Assembly (NCBI GenBank): GCA_026392935.1
Contig: JAPLBE010000012.1
Coordinates: 1-64,000, forward strand
Direction: 5' to 3'
DNA length: 64,000 nt
DNA from: Actinomycetota bacterium
GTDB lineage: Bacteria; Actinomycetota; Actinomycetes; Nanopelagicales; Nanopelagicaceae
Every line of letters begins with the position of its first letter. The stretch's first letter is position 1. The translations under genes were made by a program, and so were the position numbers. Of this stretch, positions 38,466 through 45,004 are shown one piece after another. The notes under the pieces were generated by a model. It saw only the letters and a program-made list of their open reading frames with translations. It did not search any database and had not been told where the DNA came from.

Positions 38466-38933
38466 ATGGCTGCGCGCGATGGTGACGGATGGATCGAGTG
38501 CACTTGCGGCTCTAAACATTGGGGCAAGAATGGTGCGGCTGGCCTATTAATTATTCGTGACGGTGCAATTTTTTTACAGCATCGTGCACCATGGGTTCAT
38601 AACGGAGATACATGGGGAATTCCAGGTGGAGCTCGCGATTCTCACGAAACAGTGATTGAAGGTGCAATTCGCGAGGCAGTTGAAGAGACTGGTTTAAATC
38701 CTGATGATCTAGAACCTCTTCACACATTTACCGATGATCACAATGGCTGGAGTTACTCCACCGTAATTGCGCGTGCCAATTCCCAGTTAGAAGGGCACGA
38801 ACTCAACGATGAATCTCGCGAAGTTCGTTGGGTGAAATTCGATGATGTCACGCGCCTGCCGCTGCACCCCAGTTTTGCAAAGTCTTGGCCGTTATTGCGC
38901 CAATGTATCGATGATCTGATCACACCAAGCTAG
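38466..38933 (+). CDS. NUDIX hydrolase
   Basis: This 155-residue protein carries the NUDIX box in WGIPGGARDSH followed by the E, REAVEETGL part, matching GX5EX7REUXEEXGU. NUDIX enzymes hydrolyse nucleoside diphosphates linked to other groups; the MutT-like size fits nucleotide-pool cleaning. An N-terminal CTCGSKHWG segment is typical of an actinobacterial subgroup. Its 3' end overlaps the convergent ABC ATPase gene by 42 bp. The substrate is unknown. Confidence 0.9.
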   Translation: MAARDGDGWIECTCGSKHWGKNGAAGLLIIRDGAIFLQHRAPWVHNGDTWGIPGGARDSHETVIEGAIREAVEETGLNPDDLEPLHTFTDDHNGWSYSTVIARANSQLEGHELNDESREVRWVKFDDVTRLPLHPSFAKSWPLLRQCIDDLITPS

Positions 38934-39509
38934 AGAACTCTTATCGATATGAGCAATCACCAAGACCGTTTTACCTTTATCTCGTAGCTCTTTTAAGAGT
39001 GCAATGATGCGAGCTTTGCTCTGAACATCTTGCGCTGAGAGAGGTTCATCAAATAAGTAAATGTCTACCTCCCTTATCAACGCACGGGCGATTTCAATTC
39101 GCTGTGCCTCCCCGCCGGATAAAGTGGTAACACTTTGGTTTTCAAATCTCTTCATATCCAACTTCTGCAAAATTGAATCTACGCGTTTGCGTTCATCTCG
39201 CCCCTGACCCATTTCAATGAGTTCGCGGGTGGTGTAAGAGAGCCAATAATTTCTACTCTGCAAAACAACACTGCGCAGCTGTGATTGCTCAATTACCGAT
39301 ATCTCTTTCAGGTCGCGGCCATCGATCGCGATTCTTCCTGAACTGATTGGTAAGTCTCCGGCAAGGGCGCCTAGTAGCGAACTCTTACCGCTGCCATTGG
39401 GACCAATAATTGCGGTGATTTTTCCGGGTTCAATGGCGGCGCTGAAATCAGTGAGGACACTCTTTCCGCCGCGAATGATTGAAACGTTCTCAATATTAAT
39501 TAGCGCCAT
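38892..39509 (-). CDS. hmuV: hemin/corrinoid-type ABC transporter ATP-binding protein
   Basis: This is the ATPase of a FecCD-class importer. Walker A is IGPNGSGKSSLLGAL, the signature is LSGGEAQRIEIARAL and Walker B is DIYLFDEPLSAQD. It is short (205 residues; 250-270 is usual), with little after the switch His (VIAHID). The start overlaps the permease gene by 10 bp, so hmuT-hmuU-hmuV are coupled. Substrate class (heme, cobalamin or siderophore) is inferred from the whole operon. Confidence 0.85.
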   Translation of the reverse strand: MALINIENVSIIRGGKSVLTDFSAAIEPGKITAIIGPNGSGKSSLLGALAGDLPISSGRIAIDGRDLKEISVIEQSQLRSVVLQSRNYWLSYTTRELIEMGQGRDERKRVDSILQKLDMKRFENQSVTTLSGGEAQRIEIARALIREVDIYLFDEPLSAQDVQSKARIIALLKELRDKGKTVLVIAHIDKSSLAWCDQIIDTLAQ

Positions 39510-40474
39510 ACATCACCACTCTTTTTTAGGGTGGCAATTAAAATAGGAGCACCGATAAGTGATGTCAGCAAACCAATCGGAAGTTCAAATGGTGGAATGA
39601 GAGATCGTGCTGCGGTATCTGCAATGAGGAGAATTAGTGCACCTACGAGTCCCGAGAAAATCACCAGGATTCGATTACGTGGACCACATAAATAGCGAGC
39701 AATGTGCGGCGCAGCCAGAGAAAGAAAAGCGATAGACCCAACGCTTGACACGGTTACTGCGACAAGGACTGCCAAGATTCCAAATGCTACAAAGCGAATC
39801 CGCTGTGCGTTATGTCCAATGTGCCTTACTGATGCATCACCCAATGAGAGTAAATCAAGGGTCGGCGCACTCTTCCAAGCAATCACAGTGGCTATGACAA
39901 GCACTGGGGCTACCACGTACAGAGTCTTTGTAGTCACGAGTGAGAGCGAACCAAATGACCAAAACGAAATAGAGCGTGCATCTGGTCTGCTGACAGCCGA
40001 GAGAGTGATTCCAACAATTGCATTGAGAATTGCAGAGACACCAATACCTATGGTGATTAACTGCAGCGCAGATCGAGCTAGAGAAAATGTGAGAAGTGTT
40101 GCAGCCATTGCACCAACTGCTGCGCATACAACTGCACCAGCAGATCCGATGCCAACCAGGTTTGTGAGAACACCAATGAGAACGCCTAATGAGGCACCCG
40201 CAGAGGTTCCGAGAATTGCAGGATCTGCAAGTGGATTGTTGGTCGAACTCTGAGCAAGAGATCCTGCAATACCGAGTGCTGCACCAACAAGAATGGCTGC
40301 TGCAACACGTGGTGCGCGAATTTGCCAGATGATTTGGTGTGATGTGCTATCAGGGTTTAAAAACGGATTGAAGATGTGTCGTAAGAGTTGACTTACATCG
40401 GTTGCACCAAGAGATAAAGCAACAATAGAGATGAGTGGCAGGAGAAGAATGAGCGGAACAATCTTTTTGATCAC
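39500..40474 (-). CDS. hmuU: FecCD-family ABC transporter permease
   Basis: This 324-residue membrane protein of the FecCD/BtuC family has about nine to ten helices. Family landmarks are IWQIRAPRVAAAILVGAALG, the LADPAILGTSAGASLGVLIG segment and GSIAFLSLAAPHIAR near the ATPase-coupling loop. It joins the binding-protein gene by a one-base overlap and the ATPase gene by ten bases. Family members carry hemin, vitamin B12 or ferric siderophores. Confidence 0.9.
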   Translation of the reverse strand: MIKKIVPLILLLPLISIVALSLGATDVSQLLRHIFNPFLNPDSTSHQIIWQIRAPRVAAAILVGAALGIAGSLAQSSTNNPLADPAILGTSAGASLGVLIGVLTNLVGIGSAGAVVCAAVGAMAATLLTFSLARSALQLITIGIGVSAILNAIVGITLSAVSRPDARSISFWSFGSLSLVTTKTLYVVAPVLVIATVIAWKSAPTLDLLSLGDASVRHIGHNAQRIRFVAFGILAVLVAVTVSSVGSIAFLSLAAPHIARYLCGPRNRILVIFSGLVGALILLIADTAARSLIPPFELPIGLLTSLIGAPILIATLKKSGDVWR

Positions 40475-41394
40475 TAGGTCGCCCTCGCCATTGCAATGCT
40501 TAATTTCTGCAATAAATCAGGGGTGCGCGGACCAAAGGAAAGTAAGAGAGAATCATCAACAGCAATCACTCTCCTATTTTTGCCGGCAGTTGTCTGCGCT
40601 ATTCCAGGAAGTTGCACAAGTCCAGAAACTCCGCCCACGGATTGCAATCCTTTGCTCATAACCAAAATGACATCGGGGTTAAGTGACGCAATCAGCTCAC
40701 TTGTCATAGCGCTAAATGGTTTACTCAGAGTTGCCGCTCCAACATCTTCGGCGCCAATTGCTGCAATGAGTGAATCACCACCTGATCCTTTGCCACCGAT
40801 TAAATAGATAGAACTACCTCCGCGGAGATAGAGAAAAACAACTCGACTTTTACGTGGCGCGCTCTCTATCTGTGTCATCGAAGCATTGAGTGCTTCATTG
40901 AGTGCATCACCACTTGCAGGCACTCCAATTGCGTTCGCAATCGCAGACACTTTTGCTGACATATCACCGAGCGTCCAAGCCTCTGGTGTGGAAACAACGC
41001 GAATTCCAGCAACTCTAAGCGCATCAAGAGCGCTCTTGGGGCCACTGGATTTATCAACAATAACCACATCAGGTGTAAGAGCAATTATCTTCTCGGCAAT
41101 CACCTGATGTCCTGATGTAACAATGGGGACGCTTTTAAGGTCTTCATCTGTACTTGCAATATCTCTGCCAATTAATATTGATTTGAATCCCATCGCAGAG
41201 ATGATTTCACCCGAGCCATTAGCCAGTGCAACCACTCTCTGAGTATTCACAACATCATTGCTCGTAACTGTTGTAGCTCTTGCCGATGAAATCTCGATGG
41301 CAGTAGATTGCTTAGAACTACAACCAGTAAGTAGAAGTGCAGCGGATGTGATTGAAACAACTACGAAAGCCACCACATTCCTGTCTCTACTCAT
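40474..41394 (-). CDS. hmuT: hemin/corrinoid-type substrate-binding lipoprotein
   Basis: This is the periplasmic-binding-type lipoprotein of the importer. The lipobox LLLTGC (Cys at about residue 25) ends a signal peptide. The mature part is a type III (BtuF/HmuT-like) binding protein: RVVALANGSGEIISAMGF, TPDVVIVDKSSGPK, FLYLRGGSSIYLIGGKGSGG and a C-terminal FGPRTPDLLQKL resembling HmuT. The start overlaps nothing; an 86-bp divergent gap separates it from two secreted neocarzinostatin-like proteins. HmuT is the best match, but cobalamin or siderophore binding is not excluded. No cobalamin riboswitch is seen upstream. Confidence 0.82.
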   Translation of the reverse strand: MSRDRNVVAFVVVSITSAALLLTGCSSKQSTAIEISSARATTVTSNDVVNTQRVVALANGSGEIISAMGFKSILIGRDIASTDEDLKSVPIVTSGHQVIAEKIIALTPDVVIVDKSSGPKSALDALRVAGIRVVSTPEAWTLGDMSAKVSAIANAIGVPASGDALNEALNASMTQIESAPRKSRVVFLYLRGGSSIYLIGGKGSGGDSLIAAIGAEDVGAATLSKPFSAMTSELIASLNPDVILVMSKGLQSVGGVSGLVQLPGIAQTTAGKNRRVIAVDDSLLLSFGPRTPDLLQKLSIAMARAT

Positions 41395-41418
41395 GGATGA
41401 ATACTCTCAAATATCTTG

Positions 41419-41444
41419 CCGACACGTTGCGGCCTTGTTGTCGG
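41419..41444. promoter_or_regulatory. inverted repeat in the hmuT / neocarzinostatin-like divergent promoter region
   Basis: The 86-bp gap shared by the importer operon and the secreted-protein operon contains CCGACA (41419-41424) and its complement TGTCGG (41439-41444), 14 bases apart. This spacing places the arms about two helical turns apart, as for a dimeric repressor. It does not match the DtxR/IdeR iron box. It may be an operator, but a 6-bp repeat can arise by chance. Confidence 0.25.
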
Positions 41445-41480
41445 ATAAATGCACGAGCTATCTTCTCTATTCTTAGCAAT

Positions 41481-41969
41481 GTGCACAGCAAATATGCTCT
41501 CATCGCGGTTGTGGTTACCGCTGCCTTGATAGTGCCCACGCCTGCTTTTGCTGCAACTTCGGTCCGTGGATCAGATGGTCAAAAACTTATGGCATCTGTG
41601 ACAAGAGTTAAAAGTGGGCAAGAAATACAAGTTTCGGGGCAAGGCTTTGATGAAACGGTAGGAGTTTATCTTGCGTATTGCCTGCTACCTAAGAAAGGCC
41701 AAGCGCCATCACCATGCGGAGGTGGAGTGAATAAAGAAGGAATTGGAGATGCCTCATATTGGATCTCATCAAATGCTCCTTCCTACGCTACTGGCTTAGC
41801 AATCGCCTTCACACCTGGTGGCCGCTTTTCAGAAAAAATTCGAATAACTAAAAAGATTGGCCCGCATGATTGCAGCAAAGTTAGATGCGCCATCACCGTG
41901 AGGTCAGATCACTTGCATGAAGGTGATCGCACGCATGATCTATTTATTCCCATCACCATAAAGAAGTAG
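41481..41969 (+). CDS. secreted neocarzinostatin-fold protein
   Basis: The 162-residue product starts at GTG 41481 with a clean signal peptide (YALIAVVVTAALIVPTPAFA, cut near AFA-AT); earlier in-frame ATG starts place it behind an unlikely 28-43 residue leader. The mature domain has four cysteines, C67/C79 and C131/C136, with spacing C-x11-C and C-x4-C. These resemble the two disulfides of neocarzinostatin apoproteins (C-x9-C and C-x4-C). The end motif RSDHLHEGDRTHDLFIPI is also family-like. Neocarzinostatin folds bind hydrophobic chromophores. Beside a hemin-type importer, a role in capturing a tetrapyrrole or similar ligand is possible; this is inference. Confidence 0.75.
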   Translation: MHSKYALIAVVVTAALIVPTPAFAATSVRGSDGQKLMASVTRVKSGQEIQVSGQGFDETVGVYLAYCLLPKKGQAPSPCGGGVNKEGIGDASYWISSNAPSYATGLAIAFTPGGRFSEKIRITKKIGPHDCSKVRCAITVRSDHLHEGDRTHDLFIPITIKK

Positions 41970-41983
41970 AAACAAGGAGAAAG

Positions 41984-42964
41984 ATGTTTACATCAAGCAA
42001 GAAGGTTTTAATCGCACTCGCAATTTTCGGTTTGTTAGCTCCAGTAACCGTAATGACGCCAGCTCAGGCAGAAACATTTAAATTCTCAAGTGGCCCTCTC
42101 ACAAATCTTGATCCGGCGGGTGCGACAATTAATGGTGGCTTTACGGCCTTTCCGACAAAGGCAGGCATGTATATCCAGCAATGCATTGCACCTGTTGGCG
42201 CAGCACGCCCTGCAACATGCAGCGACACGATTCAACTCTGGGTCACTGCAGCCGGTGGTCCAGGAACTACCAGCCCTACTGGTGCGATAGCAATCAAGGT
42301 TGCAGGCTCAATTATCGGCAAGGGTGTCACGGCTGATTGCACAACTTCGCAATGTGGACTCTTCTTCCGCTTCGATCACACGGCACCTACTGATACTTCG
42401 GAAGATAAATTCTTACCGATAAGTTTTGCAAAAGGAGTAGCAGCTCCAGTACTCGCTGCAGATGAAATCACTGTGACACTCAATGGAACTCCCTTAGTTC
42501 GTAATGTGCCACGTGACTTGGCCTATCGCGCAGATGCCAAGATTGTTGCTACTGCAAAATCGGGACTAAGCGTTGCTTTAACTTCGCTCACACCTGAATG
42601 TACATACTCCAATGGAACTTTGACTGCACTTAAAGGCGCCGGTCAATGTGCACTCGCATTTTCAACTGCAGGTAATACAACTACAGCCGCAGCATCAGGA
42701 AATTTCCCATTCATTCTCGTTGCTGGCACCCAAGCCATGAGCACGCTACCCACATCTTTGAAGAGAGGCGCAACTAAAACGCTTGCGAAAGAAACAAGTT
42801 TTGGGGAGCCAATTATGTATAAGAGCGCATCAAAATCATGTTCTGTTAAAGCGAATGTGCTCAAAGCAAACAAGTCAGGAACATGTGTTGTGGATTATCA
42901 CGCAGAGGCCAAAGATGGCATGTGGCAAATGCTCCACGGCTCAGCAAGGATTCGGATTAAGTAA
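41984..42964 (+). CDS. secreted protein: neocarzinostatin-fold domain plus two Ig-like repeats
   Basis: This 326-residue protein has a signal peptide (VLIALAIFGLLAPVTVMTPA, cut near AQA-ET) and a first domain homologous to its upstream neighbour: C67/C79 (x11), C119/C124 (x4) and RFDHTAPTDTSEDKFLPI. Residues 155-326 add two repeats of the bacterial Ig-like type with a paired-Cys pattern (ECTYSNGTLTALKGAGQCAL and SCSVKANVLKANKSGTCVV). The ATG has an AAGGAGAAAG just upstream, 14 bases after the previous stop. The Ig-like repeats may attach the binding domain to the cell surface. No sortase signal or membrane anchor is seen. Confidence 0.75.
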   Translation: MFTSSKKVLIALAIFGLLAPVTVMTPAQAETFKFSSGPLTNLDPAGATINGGFTAFPTKAGMYIQQCIAPVGAARPATCSDTIQLWVTAAGGPGTTSPTGAIAIKVAGSIIGKGVTADCTTSQCGLFFRFDHTAPTDTSEDKFLPISFAKGVAAPVLAADEITVTLNGTPLVRNVPRDLAYRADAKIVATAKSGLSVALTSLTPECTYSNGTLTALKGAGQCALAFSTAGNTTTAAASGNFPFILVAGTQAMSTLPTSLKRGATKTLAKETSFGEPIMYKSASKSCSVKANVLKANKSGTCVVDYHAEAKDGMWQMLHGSARIRIK

Positions 42965-42965
42965 C

Positions 42966-44963
42966 TTACTCTTCAACACTAGAGGCAAGTCTGCGAAGTG
43001 ATTCGCGGACAGTGTCCCCATCACTGGTTCGCCACAATGGTGGCATCGAATTAAGAATGACACTTCCGTAGCGCTTTGTGACAATTCGCGAATCTAAGAT
43101 TGCGACAACGCCACGGTCGTCAATACTTCGAATGAGTCTTCCCGCACCTTGCGCCAGTAACAACGCAGCACGTGGCACCGATACTTGCATAAAACCACTG
43201 CCTCCCGATGCATCGGCTAGTGATGAACGAGCAGACATCACGGGCTCATCTGGCCGCGGAAAGGGAATCCTGTCGATCGCAACAAGGATGCACGAATTTC
43301 CCGGAACATCTACACCCTGCCACAGTGACATTGTGCCAAGCAGAATTGATGTTTCATCCTTTGCAAAACGTTCCACGAGTGGCCCAACTGCATCGCCACG
43401 TTTTTGCGTAATGATTGAAATCGGAAGATCAACAAGTACTGATCGCAGATGTGCATCCGCCGCCTCTACCCCGCGCCACGAACTAAAGAGTGCCAAGGTG
43501 CGACCGCCTGCTGCGTCAATGAGTTCGCCAAGTTCTTCAAGTACTTCTTTGCTAGGACCATCACGCCCTGGCTCTGGCAAATGTTTAGGCATATACAGCA
43601 CACCTTGGTTAGCAAAATCAAAAGGGGAACCCACATCGAGCATCTGCACATTTGCAGGATCGATATCTCCATCATCGGCTTCATCATCAGCATCTGAGCC
43701 AACAACAAAACCGATACTTCGAGCCATGGCATCAAAATTGTTTCCCACCGTCAGGGTTGCAGAGGTGGCAATGACAGGCGTTTTTGTTAACAAATTCGCA
43801 CGTAGCACATGAGAAACCGAGAGCGGTGCCAGATGCAACGTCGAAAATGTTGGTTCATACCAGAGCACATGTTCATCGCCCATTTTCAGTAACTTGCCCG
43901 CAGTAGTTGCAATCTCTTGCACCGCGCCCTTTACCCGTGCGCGTTCAGCGTTCTCATCTGGGTCAATGATTTCATCATCTGCTGCAATCAACTGAACAAA
44001 TGTTGTCGCAGTTTCTTTTAACTTTCTAATAGGCGCTTCAAGAACACTTGGTATTTCCTCTAAGCGACCTTGTGCAGCGAAATCACCTTTAATGATTTCA
44101 CCGTAATCGGCCATCGAATCGTGAAAACTATCGGCGGCATTTGTTAGTGCATCCGATGGTTTACCTGGCATGTATTTGCGTGCCATTGCGGCCGCGCGTT
44201 GCACCCGACCTGAAGTCAGTTCTTCTGTAACAGCCTGCGTTGTGCGGTCCATAAACTCGTGAGCTTCATCCAAAATAACTGCATCGCGTTCGGGCAAAAT
44301 CGGATGTGAATCAACTATTTCGATTGCAAGCAAGGTGTGGTTTGTAACTACGACATCAGCCTCTTGTGCGCGGGCTTTGGCTTTTGCTGCAAAACATTGT
44401 GCGCCCCATGCACATGAATCTGCGCCCACGCATTCACGCCCCGATAAAGAATTGGCTGCCCACACTCTTCGATCAACTTCAGGTGCATCATCACGATCCC
44501 CGGATACACCCGGAGTCTTCGCCCATGCAATTAATCGCTTCGCATCTTTCTCTAAATATGAAGATTCAAGTACTAACTCGCCATCGGGATCTGTGTCATC
44601 TGCATTCATTTTCTGCAGGCAGACATAGTTGCCAACACCTTTATAAATTCCATAGGTAATTGAACGTCCCAACGCTTTTTCTAACGCGGGCACAACTGCC
44701 GGCAAATCACGTTCGACTAACTGACGTTGCAACGCCAAGGTTGCGGTGGCTACTAATACCTTTCGGCCGTGTACAAGTGCCGGAACTAAATATGCCAGTG
44801 ACTTACCTGTTCCGGTACCTGCTTGAACCATTAAGTGATGGCTGTCAGTAAGTGCATTCGCTACTGCTTCGGCCATTTCAATCTGGCCTTCTCGAGTCGA
44901 GCCTCCAATGGCCTCAACTGCTGCATCGAGAGCAAGCCTTACCTGTGCAGATAGCTCGCTCAT
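42966..44963 (-). CDS. dinG: DinG/XPD-type ATP-dependent DNA helicase
   Basis: This is a superfamily 2 iron-sulfur helicase. Walker A is QAGTGTGKSLAYLVPAL, Walker B is VILDEAHEF, and the late motifs include GTMSLWQGVDVPG and RAALLLAQGAGRLIRS. Four cysteines of the FeS cluster lie after motif Ia: one in NYVCLQ, then CVGADSCAWGAQC. DinG resolves R-loops and branched DNA. I use the ATG at 44963 (MSELSAQVRLALD) rather than the GTG three codons upstream; 665 residues. It converges on the neocarzinostatin-like operon with a one-base gap. Confidence 0.94.
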   Translation of the reverse strand: MSELSAQVRLALDAAVEAIGGSTREGQIEMAEAVANALTDSHHLMVQAGTGTGKSLAYLVPALVHGRKVLVATATLALQRQLVERDLPAVVPALEKALGRSITYGIYKGVGNYVCLQKMNADDTDPDGELVLESSYLEKDAKRLIAWAKTPGVSGDRDDAPEVDRRVWAANSLSGRECVGADSCAWGAQCFAAKAKARAQEADVVVTNHTLLAIEIVDSHPILPERDAVILDEAHEFMDRTTQAVTEELTSGRVQRAAAMARKYMPGKPSDALTNAADSFHDSMADYGEIIKGDFAAQGRLEEIPSVLEAPIRKLKETATTFVQLIAADDEIIDPDENAERARVKGAVQEIATTAGKLLKMGDEHVLWYEPTFSTLHLAPLSVSHVLRANLLTKTPVIATSATLTVGNNFDAMARSIGFVVGSDADDEADDGDIDPANVQMLDVGSPFDFANQGVLYMPKHLPEPGRDGPSKEVLEELGELIDAAGGRTLALFSSWRGVEAADAHLRSVLVDLPISIITQKRGDAVGPLVERFAKDETSILLGTMSLWQGVDVPGNSCILVAIDRIPFPRPDEPVMSARSSLADASGGSGFMQVSVPRAALLLAQGAGRLIRSIDDRGVVAILDSRIVTKRYGSVILNSMPPLWRTSDGDTVRESLRRLASSVEE

Positions 44964-45004
44964 GAGTGGCACTTTAACGGTTCAATCGCGATACTCAATA
45001 TTCT

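Follow-up and report, generated by a model that had tools for sequence, protein, structure and literature searches.

Among the closest described counterparts of the locus treated here is the HtaA-HmuTUV heme-uptake system of Corynebacterium, in which the gene of a secreted or surface protein adjoins hmuT; HtaA/CR hemophores coordinate the iron through a Tyr, with a His or Tyr as helper (PMC12494546). The locus fills positions 38892-42964 of a 64,000-nucleotide stretch (the window; contig JAPLBE010000012.1, assembly GCA_026392935.1) from an actinobacterium of the Nanopelagicaceae, and consists of five genes: hmuV, hmuU and hmuT on the minus strand and, divergent from them, ncsA and ncsB on the plus strand. 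It shares with the Corynebacterium system the type of importer, the adjacency of hmuT to the gene of a secreted protein and, in relatives, a nearby heme oxygenase, but both locus and genome lack an HtaA domain and the extracellular partner comes from a family with a neocarzinostatin (NCS)-type fold. The best interpretation, to which a probability of about 0.78 is assigned, is an HmuTUV heme-uptake cassette that has NCS-fold proteins as its extracellular part instead of HtaA.

Members of the neocarzinostatin family itself (PF00960) include neocarzinostatin, macromomycin, C-1027, actinoxanthin and kedarcidin, and the second disulfide of neocarzinostatin has the same C-x4-C spacing as NcsA. NcsA and NcsB resemble this family in predicted fold, secretion and the presence of two putative disulfides, yet they differ in their sub-cut-off Pfam scores, their heme-import setting and a conserved set of Tyr, Trp and His residues. 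A distant relative is ThiX of C. glutamicum (PDB 7qhm chain M), which aligns to the NcsA domain with an E-value of 5.8e-9 and retains the Trp, the C-x4-C pair and the D-H pair, suggesting that its soluble domain may have the NCS fold; unlike NcsA, ThiX is a lipoprotein on the bcc-aa3 supercomplex, and its soluble domain is unresolved in 7qhm. CwpG of Actinoplanes missouriensis is a surface protein that carries a sortase signal and is annotated with a domain of neocarzinostatin-like type (PMC13251363); no heme link is given in that paper, and its deletion left no visible growth or sporangium phenotype.

Predicted fold of NcsA and NcsB

A preliminary description of this DNA had pointed to two proteins with shared cysteine pairs and the motifs R-x-D-H and F-[IL]-P-I, and both reading frames and all of these features were confirmed. 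NcsA carries C67-x11-C79 and C131-x4-C136, R-x-D-H at 141-144 and FIPI near its C-terminus, while the counterpart pattern in NcsB is C-x11-C, C-x4-C, RFDH and FLPI. The four cysteines C67, C79, C131 and C136 were invariant across 80 NcsA-type domains, and the pairs C67/C79 and C131/C136 would each form a disulfide. Signal peptide cleavage in NcsA was judged by eye to fall between AFA and A, and the protein stops directly after its domain, whereas NcsB continues for ~170 residues past its NCS-like domain; no anchor signal was visible in either. When used as query, NcsA matched the position of NcsB at E 3.7e-4 in its own genome and, with E-values reaching 1e-9, in ten relatives, and by this comparison the two are homologous. 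Their similarity to the Pfam Neocarzinostat family (PF00960) is slight at the sequence level: NcsA scored 15.3 bits against a gathering cut-off of 25, NcsB gave no match, and a match to NCBIfam NF040680 was also below its cut-off (24 bits, E 2.7e-5; cut-off 86).

The AlphaFold2 model of NcsA, built on a 57-sequence alignment, had a pLDDT of 87.5 and a pTM of 0.85. A Foldseek search with it returned macromomycin at the top (E 3.5e-5) and neocarzinostatin at 7e-4; in a fold comparison against solved structures, the ten top chains (Z from 11.7 to 9.7) were without exception enediyne apoproteins or variants of neocarzinostatin, with the next unrelated chain at 8.2. Neocarzinostatin itself superposed on the model with Z 11.7 (2.2 A over 102 residues). 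The NcsB model (pLDDT 89.8) agreed with this, its N-terminal domain matching neocarzinostatin with Z 11.0 (2.7 A over 106 residues) and the other apoproteins next, and its C-terminal part being predicted as two Ig-like domains. According to these models both proteins have a neocarzinostatin-type beta-sandwich fold, with a resemblance beyond chance, as the preliminary description had supposed, and the two Ig-like repeats it had assigned to NcsB, as possible anchors, were likewise recovered. The two sequence families are tied together directly by a Crossiella protein adjoining hmuT (L098), in which a domain above the Pfam Neocarzinostat cut-off is followed by a domain of the NcsA type.

A heme-type importer and its linkage to NCS proteins

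Among solved structures, the closest relative of the window's HmuT was C. glutamicum HmuT (5az3; E 4.7e-43), with further heme binders also at the top. The first non-heme binders followed at only 1e-7, and binders of B12 and enterochelin at ~1e-4. In C. glutamicum HmuT, His141 and Tyr240 coordinate the heme and Arg242 is hydrogen-bonded to the Tyr (PMC4926363); H96, Y189 and R191 of the window's HmuT align to these three residues. In a set of 75 HmuT proteins, including that of the window, whose genes are linked to NCS-like genes, the Tyr and Arg were kept in all 75, and the His position was occupied by His in 63 and by Met in 12. Because of this alignment and the conserved ligands, the divergent importer is assigned, on sequence grounds, to the heme type, and on the same two lines of evidence a corrinoid or siderophore importer was rejected. 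Thus the HmuT-like lipoprotein said earlier to face the pair proved to be a heme-type HmuT; of the ligands then listed (heme, corrinoid, flavin or another pigment), the evidence narrows the choice to heme and leaves corrinoid and flavin aside.

The preliminary description would have failed on an unrelated fold or on missing linkage to the importer in related genomes, but it stands on both counts, and its suspicion of an undescribed capture system is supported: the linkage was found both within the genus and across actinobacteria. Within the genus, ncsA was present in 14 of 37 genomes and hmuT in exactly the same 14, where it adjoined ncsA in every neighbourhood; one further hmuT match (21% identity, E 1.6e-8) was a distant binding protein. 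In one of the 14 (L039), the cassette stands at a different chromosomal place and has one longer NCS protein. Five genomes lack the cassette and have its two flanking genes, NUDIX and dinG, directly side by side, and therefore the five genes of the cassette move or vanish as one block. Beyond the genus, 84,980 species genomes were scanned with an alignment of the NCS domain, and 80 named actinobacterial loci were kept, ranging from freshwater metagenome-assembled genomes (MAGs) to Actinoplanes, Micromonospora, Nonomuraea, Actinomadura, Streptomyces, Crossiella and Georgenia. In 78 of them hmuT lies beside the NCS gene, and the remaining two loci break off at a contig end; since the scan took no account of hmuT, this linkage counts as independent. 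Three public MAG records titled Bifidobacterium breve (L084, L097 and L118) resemble cassette-bearing freshwater actinobacteria and are probably mislabelled.

Other heme-related genes accompany these loci. Outside the freshwater/MAG set, 20 of 26 loci have an HtaA domain and 18 of 26 a heme oxygenase (assignments verified by Pfam on examples), and among 36 regions of the class chosen solely by Pfam Neocarzinostat matches, HtaA, heme oxygenase or hmuT occurs in 18. A Micromonospora protein joins an HtaA domain (E 1.3e-40) to an NCS-like domain, and a protein of 1834 residues combines three HtaA domains with a Neocarzinostat match that, at 54.4 bits, exceeds the Pfam cut-off. At L172:5820-11321, L166:7022-14569 and L168:3456-10907, giant proteins that carry NCS-type domains in addition to three HtaA domains stand beside heme oxygenase and hmuT, an architecture for which no description was found in the papers searched. 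Both HtaA and heme oxygenase are missing from the freshwater loci; in the whole genome studied here, the HtaA domain (PF04213) was absent, the C. glutamicum control being positive, and no heme oxygenase was found anywhere. Most NcsA relatives in other actinobacteria end in a membrane or sortase-like tail, and are therefore placed at the surface, while NcsA of the freshwater lineages appears to be released or to be retained by other means.

Proposed heme capture and rival explanations

HemB was absent from this genome and from 37 of 38 genus genomes, and neither HemE nor ferrochelatase was found in this genome, which does encode a heme-copper oxidase (COX1). The assembly is 96% complete, and single gene absences are not proof; the organism is apparently unable to make its own heme, and heme auxotrophy has been reported for Planktophila (PMC12381374). 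As no heme oxygenase was found, imported heme would probably serve as cofactor rather than as iron source.

In the proposed mechanism, NcsA and NcsB would be exported, and the NCS beta-sandwich would take up heme or help to free it from extracellular hemoproteins; the heme would be handed from NcsB/NcsA to the lipoprotein HmuT and then pass into the HmuUV importer. The pair would occupy the role of the HtaA hemophores of other actinobacteria, where HtaA often co-occurs with NCS-fold proteins. Surface capture would proceed through direct binding, and we lean towards the NCS domain itself contacting heme, probably through Tyr63 and/or Tyr102 together with His144. Tyr63, Trp94, Tyr102 and His144 were invariant among NcsA-type domains, with R141 and D143 also conserved; because the scan patterns spanned them, the Trp94-Tyr102 and Asp143-His144 columns are biased, whereas the Tyr63 column is not. 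A set of 11 NcsA-type proteins was reached through Pfam Neocarzinostat matches in their regions; all four residues are present in 10 of them, and the remaining one has Phe at 102. Y63, W94 and H144 are kept across most of the family, including NcsB-type domains in general, while Y102 is kept in the NcsA class but generally not in NcsB-type domains. In view of the losses in NcsB-type domains, NcsA is proposed as the stronger heme-binding candidate, and NcsB as a helper or second-tier carrier.

Several observations weigh against this interpretation. ThiX, the lone distant relative of solved structure found by sequence, belongs to a respiratory supercomplex, and the wider family would therefore not serve heme import solely. 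Many NcsB-type and HtaA-fused domains lack the first disulfide and Tyr102, so that not all family members can bind alike. The loop at residues 58-64 of the NcsA model is of low confidence. Furthermore, the cassette is absent from many HemB-less genomes of the genus, among them the single-contig relatives G014 (L197) and G015 (L196); heme auxotrophy alone does not demand the cassette, and another heme route must exist. A link between auxotrophy and cassette within the genus was accordingly dropped as unsupported, since most HemB-less genomes are also without the cassette.

The loss of the first disulfide and Tyr102 in HtaA-fused copies would favour the alternative that NcsA and NcsB take part in heme uptake but do not bind heme, acting as receptors for hemoproteins or as spacers that hold capture proteins near HmuT. 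This is unlikely, though by some way the most serious of the rivals: it would fit the Ig-like repeats of NcsB and the fusion of NCS domains to HtaA domains, a family in which the characterised members are heme binders, but the freshwater loci and this genome have no HtaA, leaving no other known hemophore to support, and a mere spacer would have no need of the Tyr and His positions retained in NcsA. Import of another tetrapyrrole or iron complex bound by NcsA and NcsB, such as coproporphyrin, a corrinoid or a siderophore, is improbable. The BtuC/FecCD transporter class is common to all of these substrates; nevertheless, HmuT is far closer to heme binders (E 1e-43) than to BtuF or siderophore binders (1e-7 or worse) and has retained the heme ligands, the loci of relatives hold heme oxygenase and HtaA, and no ferrochelatase was found in the genome for the use of an imported porphyrin. 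There is very little to recommend drug sequestration by NcsA and NcsB, for self-protection or scavenging, with the importer nearby by accident: although predicted fold and disulfide pattern are identical in kind to those of the enediyne apoproteins, the NCS genes are almost always linked to hmuT, wherever in the genome they lie, and the cassette is gained or lost as a single block. The neighbours seen around ncsA and ncsB are heme transport and housekeeping genes (no search aimed at enediyne genes was made).

If the heme-uptake interpretation holds, NcsA and NcsB are a concrete heme-capture candidate for abundant freshwater actinobacteria that are reported as heme auxotrophs. It would also provide a biological setting for a fold known chiefly from anticancer drug carriers, and a possible function for many actinobacterial surface proteins with an NCS domain that lack an assigned role. 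Given that the pairing with the importer recurs across actinobacteria, the NCS fold is probably a little-noticed part of heme collection. More tentatively, and with somewhat less than even confidence, the NCS fold may constitute a hemophore class of its own that binds heme, occurs widely in Actinomycetia alongside HmuTUV and HtaA, and stands alone in heme-auxotrophic freshwater lineages; the enediyne carriers would then be specialised offshoots of a family that handles heme. In the papers searched, no description was found of heme-capture proteins in abundant freshwater actinobacteria, nor of the NCS fold tied to HtaA or to heme uptake; subscription papers were outside this search, and novelty is unproven.

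Cassette layout and candidate operator

Table 1. Features of the cassette and its borders in the window.
Feature	Positions	Strand	Basis or remark
NUDIX gene, flanking, outside the system	38466-38933	+	3' end is one cassette edge
hmuV, heme ABC importer ATPase	38892-39509	-	Pfam ABC_tran; best NCBIfam model is heme ABC transporter ATPase, below its cut-off
hmuU, FecCD-family permease	39500-40474	-	Pfam FecCD, E 2.5e-76
hmuT, heme-binding substrate lipoprotein, LLTGC lipobox	40474-41394	-	periplasmic-binding-protein type; 5az3 match, ligand conservation
Inverted repeat CCGACA-N14-TGTCGG, candidate shared operator	41419-41444	.	inside 86-bp divergent intergenic region
ncsA, GTG start, signal peptide and single NCS-fold domain	41481-41969	+	
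NCS-fold domain of NcsA	41553-41966	+	AlphaFold2 model, fold comparison, conservation
ncsB, signal peptide, NCS-fold domain and two Ig-like domains	41984-42964	+	AlphaFold2, fold comparison
NCS-fold domain of NcsB	~42071-42433	+	predicted
Ig-like domain of NcsB	~42449-42727	+	predicted
Ig-like domain of NcsB	~42728-42961	+	predicted
DinG-type helicase gene, flanking, outside the system	42966-44972	-	other cassette edge

The dinG copy of G060, the sole HemB-bearing genome of the genus and one without hmuT, contains one in-frame TAA stop (L199, 3819-5861).

The inverted repeat between hmuT and ncsA is the sole site of its kind in the window and in the whole 1.35 Mb genome, and it is conserved at this place in many freshwater loci. 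It was found in 32 of 54 divergent loci, at most ~300 bp upstream of the NCS domain, compared with 5 sites in 567 kb outside. No match to a DtxR/IdeR iron box was found in the window with up to 3 mismatches allowed. The repeat is probably the operator of the cassette, and tandem CCGAC..GTCGG palindromes are present in some other divergent loci.

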